In this document: in pieces, positions 4,382 through 17,624 of the stretch
Layout: each line of letters begins with the position of its first letter
How positions within the stretch are numbered: the first letter of the stretch is position 1
From: Rhodoferax aquaticus
GTDB taxonomy: Bacteria > Pseudomonadota > Gammaproteobacteria > Burkholderiales > Burkholderiaceae_C
Assembly: GCF_006974105.1 (NCBI RefSeq)
Contig: NZ_CP036282.1
Location: 4,650,001-4,714,000 of the forward strand
DNA: 64,000 bases
Direction: 5' to 3'
Translations under genes and position numbers: made by a program
The notes under the pieces: model-generated
Told to the model about the DNA's origin: nothing
The model's input: the letters and a program-made list of their open reading frames with translations, nothing else
Database searches by the model: none

Positions 4382-4525
4382 TATTCATAAGTATTGTTTT
4401 TTTATAGAATTTTGCTATTTTTATGAATAAATTGACATTGCAAACGCCCGCGGCAAAGTCGGGGAAATCGCTATAAAAAATTCATAGATTTGCATAAATT
4501 GATAAATTAAGTAACATCTATGAAT
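4382..4525. promoter_or_regulatory. AT-rich hipBA promoter with two inverted-repeat pairs
   Basis: The AT-rich 168-bp gap before the antitoxin gene contains TATTCATAA (4382-4390) with its inverse TTATGAATA (4421-4429), and ATTCATAGAT (4480-4489) with its exact inverse ATCTATGAAT (4516-4525), which covers the start codon at 4524. All four share a TTCATA core. HipB-type antitoxins repress their own operon through inverted repeats, so this is the likely autoregulatory site. No convincing -35/-10 pair was identified. Confidence 0.5.
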
Positions 4526-5633
4526 GCCAAAGCAAAATATCAGCGCTTCCGACTACCCGCAGGCGGTTATCCAACAGATTCAACTGTTGGCACAAAACAT
4601 TGTGGTCGCGCGCAAACGCCGCAAAGAAACCCAAGCCCAATGGGCCCAGCGGCTTGGGGTGTCGCAGCCCACCATGGCGCGCATTGAAAAAGGCGACCCA
4701 TCCGTCGCCATGGCGTCCTACGTGATGTGTGTGTGGTTGATCAACCCAAGCGCATCCATAGCCAATCTCATTGCCCCGCAACATGACGCCATTGCCCTAG
4801 AGCGCGAGGTCGCCAAGGTGCGGCCGCGTGCCCGTGTACAAAACGTATCGAAATCGCTCCCTAGTACGCCAGCAGATACAGAAGTCGCACGCGCAAAAGA
4901 GGCAGATAACCCCGTGAAGAGAGCAGACAGCCATACCAAGATGCGGCAAAGCTTACAAGAGCAACAGAGCCTTGCTAGCGCTGCTGAAAAGCTAGGCTTA
5001 GGGTCTCGTGGTGCACTGGAAAAGTTCAAAGAGCAACAGAGCCTTGCCAGCGCCGCTGAAAAGCTAGGCTTAGGGTCTCGTGGTGCACTGGAAAAGTTCA
5101 AAGAGCAACAGAGCCTTGCCAGCGCCGCTGAAAAGCTAGGTTTAGGGACTCGTGGTGCACTGGAAAAGCTCCAAGAGCAACAGCGCCTTGCCAGCGCTGC
5201 TGAAAAGCTAGGCTTAGGGTCTCGTGGTGCACTGGAAGAGTTCAAAGAGCAACAGCGCCTTGCCAGCGCCGCTGAAAAGCTAGGTTTAGGGTCTCGTGGT
5301 GCACTGGAAAAGCTCCAAGAGCAACAGCGCCTTGCCAGCGCTGCTGAAAAGCTAGGCTTAGGGTCTCGTGGTGCACTGGAAGAGTTCAAAGAGCAACGGC
5401 GCCTTGCCAGCGCCGCTGAAAAGCTAGGTTTAGGGTCTCGTGGTGCACTGGAAGAGTTCAAAGAGCAACAGCGCCTTGCCAGCGCTGCTGAAAAGCTAGG
5501 CTTAGGGTCTCGTGGTGCACTGGAAGAGTTCAAAGAGCAACAGCGCCTTGCCAGCGCCGCTGAAAGCTCTGTTCGTACCGCCACCGGTCTGGCTGCGTTG
5601 ATAGCAAAAGTACCAGGATCTCGCAAGCTATGA
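4524..5633 (+). CDS. HipB-like antitoxin with tandem-repeat C-terminus
   Basis: 369 residues, several times the length of ordinary HipB (about 90). Residues 25-75 form an XRE/Cro-type helix-turn-helix (RRKETQAQWAQRLGVSQPTM ... IEKGDPSVAM). Residues 76-145 are a charged linker. From residue 146 there are eight perfect-length 24-residue repeats, consensus EQQRLASAAEKLGLGSRGAL followed by EEFK or EKLQ, then a ninth that stops after ten residues and a 22-residue tail ending VPGSRKL. It overlaps the HipA toxin gene by ATGA (5630-5633), so translation is coupled. Role: DNA-binding antitoxin and autorepressor. The function of the repeats is unknown; a toxin-binding or oligomerising scaffold is one possibility. 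Confidence 0.85.
   Translation: MPKQNISASDYPQAVIQQIQLLAQNIVVARKRRKETQAQWAQRLGVSQPTMARIEKGDPSVAMASYVMCVWLINPSASIANLIAPQHDAIALEREVAKVRPRARVQNVSKSLPSTPADTEVARAKEADNPVKRADSHTKMRQSLQEQQSLASAAEKLGLGSRGALEKFKEQQSLASAAEKLGLGSRGALEKFKEQQSLASAAEKLGLGTRGALEKLQEQQRLASAAEKLGLGSRGALEEFKEQQRLASAAEKLGLGSRGALEKLQEQQRLASAAEKLGLGSRGALEEFKEQRRLASAAEKLGLGSRGALEEFKEQQRLASAAEKLGLGSRGALEEFKEQQRLASAAESSVRTATGLAALIAKVPGSRKL
4959..5564 (+). repeat. 72-bp in-frame coding tandem repeat (8 copies plus part)
   Basis: Eight complete 72-bp units run 4959-5534, and a ninth begins at 5535 and loses similarity after about 30 bases. Units differ by only a few bases, mostly CAGAGC/CAGCGC, GCTGCT/GCCGCT, and the last four codons, which alternate between AAGCTCCAA and GAGTTCAAA types. 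Because the period is a multiple of three, gain or loss of units keeps the frame. The opposite strand is also open for the same reason, giving a long false ORF. Confidence 0.95.
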
Positions 5634-6895
5634 AAGACCCTGCGCTGGGCGTTGACCCTATCACCTACCAACCGCAAGACCAACTGTATGTCTGGGCGCT
5701 GGTGGACCCGAGCAACCCTGTGTTGGTAGGGGAACTTAGCCTGTCGCGATTGCTTGCTGACTGTGCCATGTTCACTTATGCGCCGGCATGGTGGCACTTT
5801 GCTTTGAGCGAAGACCTGCCGATCATTGCGGGGCAAACTTACAGCGCGGGTGAGCGTGGTAGTGCACCCGGCGCGCTGGACGACGCCCGACCAGACCGCT
5901 GGGGCGAACGCATCATTCGCCATGTGGACCGCCCAGCGCGCTTGTCGATTTTGGAGATGCTGCTGTTTGCGGGCGATGACCGCTTTGGCGCGCTAGGGGT
6001 TTCTGTGTCGGCACAGCGCTACCTACCGCGCAAGCTGGGGCCCTATCCGCAGCTGAACCAGCTGGCGGAGCTTGCCCAAGCCGTTGAAGACGTTCAGCTG
6101 CAAGCCCCTATTGCCCCCGACATGCAGCGCCTGCTGCAACCCGGCGCCAGCCTAGGCGGTGCACACCCCAAGGCCCTGCTGCACACGGCAGACGGCCCGT
6201 GTGTGGTGAAGCTCAGCGAACTGGATGACCCGGTAGACACACCGCTGATTGAACACGCCACCATGACCTTGGCCGCCCTGGCGGGTATCACCGTGGCGCG
6301 CACCGGCACGCTGCCCTTGGCGCCGCGCTACGGCAAAGCACGCCATGCGCTCACGATCCAACGGTTTGACCGCCAAGAGAACTTGCGCCTGCACTGCGTG
6401 TCTGCCAACACCGTGCTGCGCGCTGCCAGCTTGCCTGAGAGCTATGCCGCGCTGGCCACGGTGGTGTTGCGCCTGGCACACCCAGACCACCAAGTGCGCA
6501 TGCGCGAAGAGTTGTTCCAGCGCATGGTGTTCAACATCTTGATGGACAACACCGACGACCATGAGCGCAACCACGCCCTGCGCCTAGAGTTTGATGGCTA
6601 CTACGCGCTGTCTCCGGCGTATGACGTGGTGCCTAGCTTGCAAAATTTGGGCTACCAGGCGCTCATCGTCGGCGCGTCTGGCGCAGAGTCCACGCTGGAG
6701 AATGCGCTGTCCCAACTCAGCGAGTTCAGCATTAAAAAGCCGCGCGCCGTTGAGCTGATCCGCCAAGTAGCCCGCACGGTGGACCAGTGGCCGCAGCACT
6801 TTGCACAACATGGCGTGTGCCCAGCCGATATGGAGCGCCTGCAGGCCAGCATTGACCGTGACGCCTTGCGCTTGCAGCGCAAGGCGTACTGCTAG
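5630..6895 (+). CDS. hipA: HipA-family toxin kinase
   Basis: 421 residues, normal for HipA. Landmarks: GASLGGAHPK at 172-181 (the Gly-rich loop containing the autophosphorylation Ser region), K194 in CVVKLSE as likely ATP lysine, FNILMDNTDDHERNH at 301-315 as the catalytic loop, and LSPAYDVVP around 328-335 carrying the metal-binding Asp. HipA kinases phosphorylate translation targets (glutamyl-tRNA synthetase in E. coli) and cause dormancy; they are held inactive by HipB. All key residues are present, so the toxin looks active. Start chosen by the ATGA overlap with the antitoxin stop. Confidence 0.9.
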   Translation: MKDPALGVDPITYQPQDQLYVWALVDPSNPVLVGELSLSRLLADCAMFTYAPAWWHFALSEDLPIIAGQTYSAGERGSAPGALDDARPDRWGERIIRHVDRPARLSILEMLLFAGDDRFGALGVSVSAQRYLPRKLGPYPQLNQLAELAQAVEDVQLQAPIAPDMQRLLQPGASLGGAHPKALLHTADGPCVVKLSELDDPVDTPLIEHATMTLAALAGITVARTGTLPLAPRYGKARHALTIQRFDRQENLRLHCVSANTVLRAASLPESYAALATVVLRLAHPDHQVRMREELFQRMVFNILMDNTDDHERNHALRLEFDGYYALSPAYDVVPSLQNLGYQALIVGASGAESTLENALSQLSEFSIKKPRAVELIRQVARTVDQWPQHFAQHGVCPADMERLQASIDRDALRLQRKAYC

Positions 6896-15207: not shown

Positions 15208-16659
15208 ATGTCCACCCCACCGCGCCCTCTGTACCAAAGCTTGGCCCAACGCCTGCAAGACGCCATGGCCAGCGGTGCCTTGGCCGTGGGCGCGCGGTTG
15301 CCCTCGGTACGCCAGTTGGCGCAGCAGCACAGCGTGAGCTTGGTCACTGCCTTGCATGTGTACCGCCACTTAGAGGCGTTAGGGCTGGTGGTGGCCAAAC
15401 CCAAGTCGGGCTACTTTGTGGCACCACCGGCACGGCCGGCCACCATCGCCAAGCTCCACGCGCTCGCCGCGCCCTTGCCTACCGCCCAGTACGTGGGCCG
15501 CAACCACGACATCACCCACATCACCTATTTGGCGCGCGCGCATGGCCGCTTGCGGCTGGACATTGCCACCGGCCCGCCCTCGGTCTACCCCACGCCGGTG
15601 TTACAGCGGCTCATGACGCGCATCAGCCGCCAGCACCCCGAGCTGCTCACCCAGTACGGCACTGGCACGGGCTGGCCTGCGCTGCAAAGTGAGCTGGCCC
15701 GCCGCGCGCTGGCCGCTGGCTGCGAGCTGCGCCCCCACGAGCTGCTCATCACCCACGGCAGCACCGAGGCGCTGAACCTGGCACTGCGCGCCTGCACCCA
15801 GCCCGGCGACACGGTGGTGGTGGAGTCGCCCACTTACTTTGGGCTGCTGCAAATTTTGGAAAGCCTGCAACTGCGCGCTTTGGAGCTGCCTACCGATGCC
15901 GTGACCGGGCTGGACTTGGACGCGCTTGAACTTGCCACCAGCACGCCGGGTGCGGTGCAGGCGGTGGTGGTCACGCCCAATTTTCAAAACCCCTTGGGCA
16001 GCCTCATGCCAGACGCCCACAAGGCGCGCTTGGTGGCGCTCATGGCCGAGCGCAACATCGCGTTGATTGAAGACGATGTGTTTGGCGACCTGCACTACCA
16101 CGCGCTAGACCGCCGCCCGCGCTGCGCCAAGGCCTGGGATGCAGCGGGTGACGCAGGCACCGTCATGCTGTGTGGCTCGGCCACCAAGACGCTGGCACCA
16201 GGCATGCGCATCGGCTGGCTGGCCGCCGGACGCTGGCGCACCAAGGTCGAGATGCTCAAGTTCACCAGCTCCATTGCCACGCCCGAGCTGCCGCAGGCCG
16301 CCATTGCCGCCTTCCTGCAAACCGGCGGCTATGAACGCTACCTGCGCCGCCTGCGCCAGACGTACCTGAGCCAAACCCACCGCATGGTGCAAGCCGTGCG
16401 CCAGCACTTCCCACCGGGCACCCAGTGCGACATGCCCCAAGGCGGCCATCTGCTCTGGGTGCAACTGCCCGATGGTCGCAATGCCCGCACCCTGTTTGAC
16501 CTGGCCCTGCAAGAGTCCATAGGCATAGCGCCGGGCCTGATGTTCTCCACCACCGACCGCTACCAACACTGCCTGCGCCTGAACGCCGGTTACCCCTGGA
16601 GCGACGCGGTAGACAACAGCCTGCAACGCCTAGGCGCCTTGGCCCACGGGCTGGCGTAG
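15208..16659 (+). CDS. MocR-type regulator (GntR wHTH + aminotransferase fold)
   Basis: 483 residues. Winged helix at about 8-75 (PLYQSLAQRLQDAMASGALA ... RLPSVRQLAQQHSVSLVTA), linker, then a fold-type I aminotransferase domain with TQYGTGTGWPALQSELAR, VTPNFQNPLGS, EDDVFGDLHY and CGSATKTLAPGMRIGW; K327 is the expected PLP lysine. As it resembles a catalytic aminotransferase closely, weak enzymatic activity cannot be excluded. Divergent from the BenE-like transporter, which is the likely target. Followed by the 267-bp repeat array. Confidence 0.87.
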   Translation: MSTPPRPLYQSLAQRLQDAMASGALAVGARLPSVRQLAQQHSVSLVTALHVYRHLEALGLVVAKPKSGYFVAPPARPATIAKLHALAAPLPTAQYVGRNHDITHITYLARAHGRLRLDIATGPPSVYPTPVLQRLMTRISRQHPELLTQYGTGTGWPALQSELARRALAAGCELRPHELLITHGSTEALNLALRACTQPGDTVVVESPTYFGLLQILESLQLRALELPTDAVTGLDLDALELATSTPGAVQAVVVTPNFQNPLGSLMPDAHKARLVALMAERNIALIEDDVFGDLHYHALDRRPRCAKAWDAAGDAGTVMLCGSATKTLAPGMRIGWLAAGRWRTKVEMLKFTSSIATPELPQAAIAAFLQTGGYERYLRRLRQTYLSQTHRMVQAVRQHFPPGTQCDMPQGGHLLWVQLPDGRNARTLFDLALQESIGIAPGLMFSTTDRYQHCLRLNAGYPWSDAVDNSLQRLGALAHGLA

Positions 16660-16699: not shown

Positions 16700-17592
16700 A
16701 ACACCCACTCCCCCAACCCCTCGCCCCGTCGGCGAGGGGAGTCTTGAACTGCCAATTTGGGTTTTGGTCGCCGGACGCGCGTCTACAGGGGTGGCGCTGC
16801 CGACGTTGTGGTTTGCCACGGCGCATGCGATGCGGTTGTAGATATTTCATGCACCTAGGCTTGCCAACGCTGGCGGCGAAGCGCGCCAGTGGGGGCGTGC
16901 ACACCCATCCGAGGCCCTACAACCGCATGCACTGGCCGTGGTGGACCACCCCTGTTGGCTACGGTGCTTTGGTAGCCCTGTTGCCGGAGAAAAACCATCC
17001 AATCGGCAGTTCAGGACTCCCCTCGCCGACGGGGCGAGGGGTTGGGGGAGTGGGTGTTAAACGATCAAGCCAGTAAGCCAACTCTTCAACAGCGAGTGCA
17101 AACCGTTGCAAATTCATGCACTTTGGCCTGCCAACGCTGGCGGCGAAGCGCGCCAGTGGGGGCGTGCACACCCATCCGAGGCCCTACAACCGCATGCACT
17201 GGCCGTGGTGGACCACCCCTGTTGGCTACGGTGCTTTGGTAGCCCTGTTGCCGGAGAAAAACCATCCAATCGGCAGTTCAGGACTCCCCTCGCCGACGGG
17301 GCGAGGGGTTGGGGGAGTGGGTGTTAAACGATCAAGCCAGTAAGCCAACTCTTCAACAGCGAGTGCAAACCGTTGCAAATTCATGCACTTTGGCCTGCCA
17401 ACGCTGGCGGCGAAGCGCGCCAGTGGGGGCGTACACACCCATCCGAGGCCCTACAACCGCATGCACTGGCCGTGGTGCACCACCCCTGTTGGCTACGGTG
17501 CTTGGGTAGCCCTGTTGCCGGGGAAAACCATCCAATCGGCAGTTCAGGACTCCCCTCGCCGACGGGGCGAGGGGCTGGGGGAGTGGGTGTTA
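16700..17592. repeat. Tandem 267-bp non-coding array with four GC-rich palindromic elements
   Basis: The 965-base gap between the MocR and thioesterase genes is repetitive. A 54-bp element with a perfect CCCCTCGCC...GGCGAGGGG-type palindrome occurs at 17005-17058, 17272-17325 and 17538-17591, and once inverted at 16700-16753. Between them lies a unit beginning TGCCAACGCTGGCGGCGAAG at 16862, 17129 and 17396, so the period is exactly 267 bp for the first two intervals. Each unit also has a CTGGCG...CGCCAG hairpin. Identical short ORFs arise in every unit on both strands, have no start signals and look spurious. Confidence 0.9.
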
Positions 17593-17624
17593 ATCAACCA
17601 AGCCAGCGGGGATGTGTACACCCA

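Follow-up and report, generated by a model that had tools for sequence, protein, structure and literature searches.

What does a row of near-identical repeats do inside an antitoxin? The question is raised by a gene pair of Rhodoferax aquaticus (genome of 4.74 Mb, one contig) that lies in the 64,000-nucleotide stretch of DNA analyzed here, which we call the window and to which all R. aquaticus positions refer. There, a hipB-like antitoxin gene at 4524..5633 (+ strand; an ORF of 369 aa) carries a tandem repeat array, flanked by a DNA-binding domain and a C-terminal motif that are both conserved. The answer we lean to, holding the chances to be about even, is that the array is a helical spacer that arose by in-frame duplication and lengthens or stiffens the tether between domain and tail.

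The hipB-hipA Gene Pair

A hipA-like kinase gene lies at 5630..6895 (+ strand; 421 aa), its start overlapping the hipB stop in ATGA. The two genes, antitoxin first, are coupled by this 4-bp overlap as in HipBA modules, and the same overlap occurs in at least 44 of the 64 loci compared below, a lower bound because the longest nearby ORF was taken. The window HipB matches couple_hipB (TIGR03070) at 1.7e-6 (27.9 bits, below the cut-off of 71.65), Pfam HTH_31 at 0.0011 (under the cut-off) and, among PDB sequences, the solved HipB 9u9g at 7.5e-9 over query residues 19-115; by sequence, it belongs with the XRE-type helix-turn-helix antitoxins. The downstream HipA contains both the N-terminal and the kinase domains (Couple_hipA, 1.4e-6, 29.1 bits; HipA_C, 1e-40, 140 bits; both above cut-off) and aligns with solved HipA_C-domain proteins across D-x-H-x-x-N and YD, which we take to be the kinase motifs. 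The matches to 9u9g and HipA_C bear out the first-pass annotation, which had placed a HipB-type protein upstream of a HipA-type kinase gene. In both its domain content and its layout, the pair resembles the HipBA modules of E. coli K-12 and Shewanella oneidensis, in which, according to passages of PMC8262856, an XRE antitoxin gene lies upstream of and overlaps the HipA kinase gene. The locus thus reads as a HipBA-type module with an enlarged antitoxin linker, its neutralization and toxic kinase activity being putative.

Within the window HipB, residues 1-97 (4524..4814, + strand) are strongly conserved in an alignment of 10 relatives and correspond to the XRE-type DNA-binding domain, for which AlphaFold gives a block of pLDDT 73-93 over residues 1-80 and 54-61 over residues 81-100. 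A linker that is hypervariable among the relatives follows at 4815..4958 (+ strand; pLDDT below 50 at residues 100-134) and leads into the array, beyond which the tail motif GLAAL (residues 355-359; 5586..5600, + strand) is invariant from G355 to L359 in the 10 sequences. The protein ends in VPGSRKL: the C-terminal Trp of E. coli-type HipB, described in passages of PMC3376134 and PMC10627512, is absent, and the window family has instead a GLAAL-like motif 6-14 residues before the end. Because the HipB of HipBST, likewise without a C-terminal Trp, is described in the relevant passages of PMC10627512 as a regulator and not an antitoxin, the antitoxin role of the window HipB is a presumed one.

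The best solved relative by sequence, the HipB of Pseudomonas fluorescens 2P24 (PDB 9u9g, 153 aa), is also first in the fold list for the window HipB, though at E 0.2, and its match stops before the array. E. coli HipB has 88 residues and lacks the long linker of predicted tandem helical units, so the earlier figure of about 90 residues for an ordinary HipB holds for E. coli; it does not hold for the repeat-less relatives in the genus, the nine nearest of which (L002, L003, L004 and L039-L044) have 135-156 aa.

The 72-bp Array

Tandem Repeats Finder and unit alignment place eight full 72-bp units of 24 residues at 4959..5534 (+ strand), with starts at 4959, 5031, 5103, 5175, 5247, 5319, 5391 and 5463, followed by a partial ninth unit of ten codons (EQQRLASAAE) at 5535..5564 (+ strand); the program reports 4957-5565, period 72, 8.5 copies, 94% matches, no indels and a score of 1071. 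The eight near-identical, in-frame repeats of the first-pass annotation were thereby recovered, and its count needs correction only by the partial unit. The end of the array lies 65 bases from the hipA start at 5630, in agreement with the distance of under 70 bases given earlier. Nine of the 72 base positions vary among the eight units, three of them synonymous and six replacing. The self-similarity of the window linker is 52 standard deviations above that of shuffled linkers, and the array is therefore not a chance pattern.

Less usual leucine codons are concentrated in the array (4959-5534): of its 34 leucine codons, 16 are TTA or CTA. Outside the array, these two codons account for 3 of 11 leucines in hipB, for 4 of 57 in hipA and, from rounded fractions, for about 9% of the 109 in three neighbor genes. 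Elsewhere in the window, an apparently noncoding 267-bp tandem repeat at 16846-17606 (2.9 copies, 97%) sits 3' of a MocR-like regulator gene at 15208-16659, a name assigned by eye.

A broad, already known family bearing these repeats would have removed the novelty of the array; none was found in the collections searched. The unit gave no repeat family among its matches in Pfam, NCBIfam, PADLOC and PDB sequences; a search of phages returned none, and 21 pattern matches in viral contigs yielded none that could be confirmed. Besides the array, a DNA search of its own genome returned 14 short matches (15-30 bases), none with an E value below 0.4. Against 299 family genomes, the array protein matched its own genome and nine others at E 3.6e-5 to 9.5e-4; by our reading, these nine look compositional, mostly in frames unlike genes, and were rejected. 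Two places on Azospirillum plasmids (32% identity, E 6e-7 and 5e-8) were set aside because each lies on the strand opposite a long annotated gene. The literature, covered mainly at title and abstract level with few subscription journals and including parts of PMC4680722, PMC4803016 and PMC10627512, gave no report of tandem-repeat arrays in HipB.

HipB Relatives and Their Tails

HipB matches at E ≤ 1e-15 occur in 28 of 103 genus genomes, R. aquaticus included. A scan of genome contigs found 62 loci, mostly Comamonadaceae by title (Rhodoferax, Acidovorax, Comamonas, Curvibacter, Hydrogenophaga and others) and a few from neighboring groups. Together with ten genus loci, the window's own among them, these gave 72 extracted proteins, or 64 distinct ones after removal of 8 duplicates; two of the 64 (L090 and L117) are cut by contig ends, and L005-L038 and 13 distant genus loci (L045-L057) lie outside this set. 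An added pass over 42 loci (L121-L149 and L045-L057) produced 16 duplicates, 11 loci at which the protein was not found and 15 new proteins, comprising 3 full family members and 12 distant ones; no arrays were seen in these 15, a few of whose tails are too short for the test.

By tblastn, hipA adjoins hipB in 55 of the 64 loci (among these, L061 ends within hipA at a contig end and L069 lacks an internal stretch); seven have hipB without hipA, and the remaining two are those cut by contig ends. Of the 55 HipBs adjoining hipA, all but L074 (54 proteins) have the motif G[LI][AL][ASD]L at 6-14 residues from the end, and strict GLAAL is present in 49 of the 55 compared with four of the seven without hipA (p 0.056 for an association of tail-motif loss with hipA loss).

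Six family HipBs (L092, L096, L109, L111, L114 and L115) have no hipA detectable in the flank examined; four of them keep the strict GLAAL tail and one has GIAAL. In Paracidovorax oryzae (L116, 3001-3411), approximately the first 97 residues of HipB are fused in frame to approximately the last 45 of HipA, an arrangement suggestive of a deletion through the middle of the module that left only a remnant of hipA. In an uncultured Comamonas (L069, 3681-4637), where hipB bears an array, the adjoining hipA is missing about 60 residues that follow residue 41 in the alignment. The window's upstream regulator and its gnd were looked for in flanks of up to 3 kb at the 63 other loci and neither was found, and the module therefore seems to occupy different chromosomal places.

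Recurrent Arrays at the Linker Site

Tandem repeats occur in 7 of the 64 distinct linkers (L001, in the window; L062, L072, L087, L069, L082 and L104) when self-similarity is required to exceed that of shuffled linkers by more than 5 standard deviations, the next-best linker reaching 2.2. Without the window linker, the case that prompted the analysis, the count is 6 of 63. The seven arrays have units of 24, 24, 32, 32, 25, 12 and 3 residues, and their DNA periods are 72 bp in L001 and L062, 96 bp in L072, 36 bp in L082, 75 bp in L069 (with loose settings only) and 9 bp in L104; in L087, the protein repeats at 32 residues with no DNA-level repeat. The array of Rhodoferax sp. U2-2l (L062) occupies the same site as that of the window, with about 5 copies at 93% and a unit of the SSAADMARLAGTGAAAEMARLAGV type, and proline-free 32-residue tandem units fill this site in the Giesbergeria (L072) and Acidovorax (L087) HipBs. 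Since the other 57 linkers show no array at this threshold, the array is dispensable for the module.

As a control, the repeat test was run on 160-residue tails of further ORFs at these loci, with 15 shuffles per tail against 30-60 per linker; 3 of 128 passed, two being antisense readings of HipB arrays and the third a TYTY run at the L104 locus; without the two antisense readings, the count is 1 of 126. Repeats are thus commoner in HipB linkers than in these control tails, which include spurious ORFs and are unmatched for disorder. The L104 genome (Acidovorax sp. SUPP3334) has both its PIA array in HipB and the TYTYTY run in another ORF of the same locus, and with two simple repeats in one locus it may be slippage-prone or misassembled.

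The comparison with related genomes proposed at the outset, made with one genome per species, found the array absent from the two nearest relatives, the sister L058 (HipA 87% identical) and L059. A protein alignment with L058 shows a gap at the array; in the DNA alignment with the same sister, the insertion is not cleanly placed. L087 likewise has an array-less sister, L073, and arrays at the linker site are gained or lost between close relatives. In a HipA tree of 53 proteins, from which L069 was omitted because of its broken hipA match, the six placed array rows need six changes, all forced by the starred branches, and the tree does not separate gain from loss. Shuffled array labels need 5.8 changes on average, and the arrays are therefore scattered, not clustered, on the tree.

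Profile comparison of five unit sets (all but L082 and L104) shows that the units of L072 and L087 are related (E 6e-15, 0 of 60 shuffles), so that losses or transfer are needed on the tree; L062 and L069 may share one unit, by a weaker sequence match (E 2e-4, 0 of 60 shuffles, probability 47%). The window unit could not be related to those of L062, L072, L087 or L069, and its profile score was reached by 16 of 60 shuffles for L062, 3 of 60 for L072 and 46 of 60 for L087. By this comparison, the five sets comprise no fewer than three separate unit types, and the PIA array of L104 is plainly a different fourth. A common ancestor for all arrays was considered and rejected: the window-unit profile scores at most 3.3 bits on the other linkers, and shuffled linkers (20 shuffles per linker) reach up to 8.0. 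With unlike repeats occupying it in several relatives, the linker site looks like a fast-changing spacer.

In a rival account, neutral expansion, the linker tolerates any in-frame insertion, and the array is a transient outcome of slippage or unequal recombination, its frame kept open for no other reason than the tail motif and the overlapping hipA start that follow it. Linker lengths fit this account, with a median of 47.5 residues and extremes of 23 (L110 and L118) and 258 (the window HipB) at which hipA still adjoins, as does the hipA match, covering most of the gene, that is retained in sisters with and without an array alike (L001/L058 and L087/L073). The excess of repeats over the control tails speaks against it, within the limits of that control. 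We regard neutral expansion as a serious candidate with somewhat less than an even chance of being right.

Predicted Structure and Composition of the Units

Both AlphaFold models show one 19-20-residue helix and a 4-5-residue LGLGS loop per 24-residue period, the helix across the first two units reading RGALEKFKEQQSLASAAEK. Their confidence is modest (pLDDT 69 and 65, pTM 0.28 and 0.17), with packing not confidently predicted, and a Foldseek fold search with these low-confidence models gave no match at E 0.001; for both reasons, we count rigidity of the array as unproven. Of the helix, turn and helix that the first-pass annotation saw in each unit, the helical character reappears in both models and the second helix does not: there is one helix per period, and the unit as first cut runs from the last part of a predicted helix through the loop into the helix that follows. 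With its near-identical predicted helices, the array could serve as a multivalent scaffold, its units self-associating or binding several HipA or other proteins. This seems to us quite unlikely, as no relative of the unit was found, and hence no known partner-binding motif, and the mostly different sequences that other lineages have at the site argue against a specific partner.

The window units carry a net charge of +2.1 per 100 residues, which is close to neutral, and in six arrays (L001, L062, L072, L087, L069 and L082) the net charge per 100 residues departs from neutral by no more than 3. Proline accounts for 0-1% of the array segments in L001, L062, L072 and L087, 5% in L069 and 8% in L082. 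In the pool of 54 nonarray linkers, proline reaches 12% and the net charge +11.5 per 100 residues, a composition from which single linkers deviate (L042 has no proline). In composition, six of the seven arrays are the reverse of ordinary linkers taken together, which counts against neutral expansion. The exception is L104, kept out of both composition groups, whose plain array of proline-rich PIA units suits neutral expansion and is ill-fitting for a helical spacer.

Pooled over five arrays (L001, L062, L072, L087 and L069), there are 47 synonymous and 66 replacing changes between units (60 transitions and 53 transversions), with an omega-like ratio of 0.58-0.62 near the observed transition bias (p about 0.01, becoming 0.056 at a transition bias of 6). 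This shortage of replacing changes suggests mild protein-level constraint on the units and counts against neutral expansion; the window array by itself, with its 3 synonymous and 6 replacing changes, shows no evident constraint, as neutral expansion would have it.

Operator-Like Arms Upstream of hipB

Upstream of hipB are two inverted arms, TTCATAGA on the left at 4481..4488 (+ strand), 43 bases before the start codon, and TCTATGAA on the right at 4517..4524 (+ strand), overlapping the start codon. In the 63 hipB upstreams counted (L069 left out), the left arm occurs within one mismatch at -46 to -40 in 57, compared with 6 of 1260 shuffled sequences, and the right arm within one mismatch in 61. 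Both arms are present at this stringency in 55, spaced by 36 (48 loci) or 35 (7 loci). These conserved inverted arms are a candidate HipB operator. Among array members, L001, L072, L087, L082 and L104 have an arm spacing of 36, and L062 has an exact left arm and a right arm with two mismatches at the same place; with spacing the same in array members, the operator layout is unchanged by the arrays.

The proposal that the units are extra DNA-binding helix-turn-helix motifs finds no support in these data. In its favor, the whole-protein score for Pfam HTH_28 is 40.3, above the cut-off of 25, and neighboring periods in the AlphaFold models have a helix-turn-helix arrangement between them. However, the score is a sum of weak matches of which no single stretch passes, the units are near neutral in charge, and the operator arms and their spacing are the same in array members; we consider this reading highly improbable.

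A Proposed Helical Spacer Between Domain and Tail

Under the helical spacer reading, a 72-bp segment would have been duplicated in frame within the hipB linker to produce a row of helix-loop units, with the copy number probably changing by slippage or recombination. The array would then act as a spacer between the operator-bound dimer and the conserved tail, and a longer or stiffer tether would alter the reach and exposure of that tail and, we infer, its encounter with HipA or with a protease such as Lon. By analogy with E. coli, the conserved tail motif may meet HipA, a protease or both: passages of PMC3376134 describe the last 16 residues of E. coli HipB as unstructured and required for Lon degradation, and placement of the C-terminal Trp of HipB in a HipA pocket (PMC10627512) and of the very C terminus at HipA (PMC8262856) has been proposed in the parts of those papers that treat it. 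In the same passages of PMC3376134, loss of these 16 residues leaves the binding of E. coli HipB to HipA and to the operator unchanged, and a role of the tail in neutralization is therefore not assured. The passages on the HipB tail in these sources contain no treatment of linker length.

Neutral expansion explains nearly as much as the helical spacer and is its close rival. A stronger version of the spacer reading, in which a recurrently reinvented, copy-number-variable spacer shifts the balance of repression, neutralization and turnover with its number of units and so provides a heritable, reversible setting of persistence, strikes us as improbable. The evidence for a tether role is entirely comparative, and it comes from a family in which both ends of HipB are fixed and the middle has been repeatedly filled with different repeats. 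This family is a natural series of tether variants, one that would let the effects of tether length and stiffness on neutralization, repression and antitoxin stability be studied directly.
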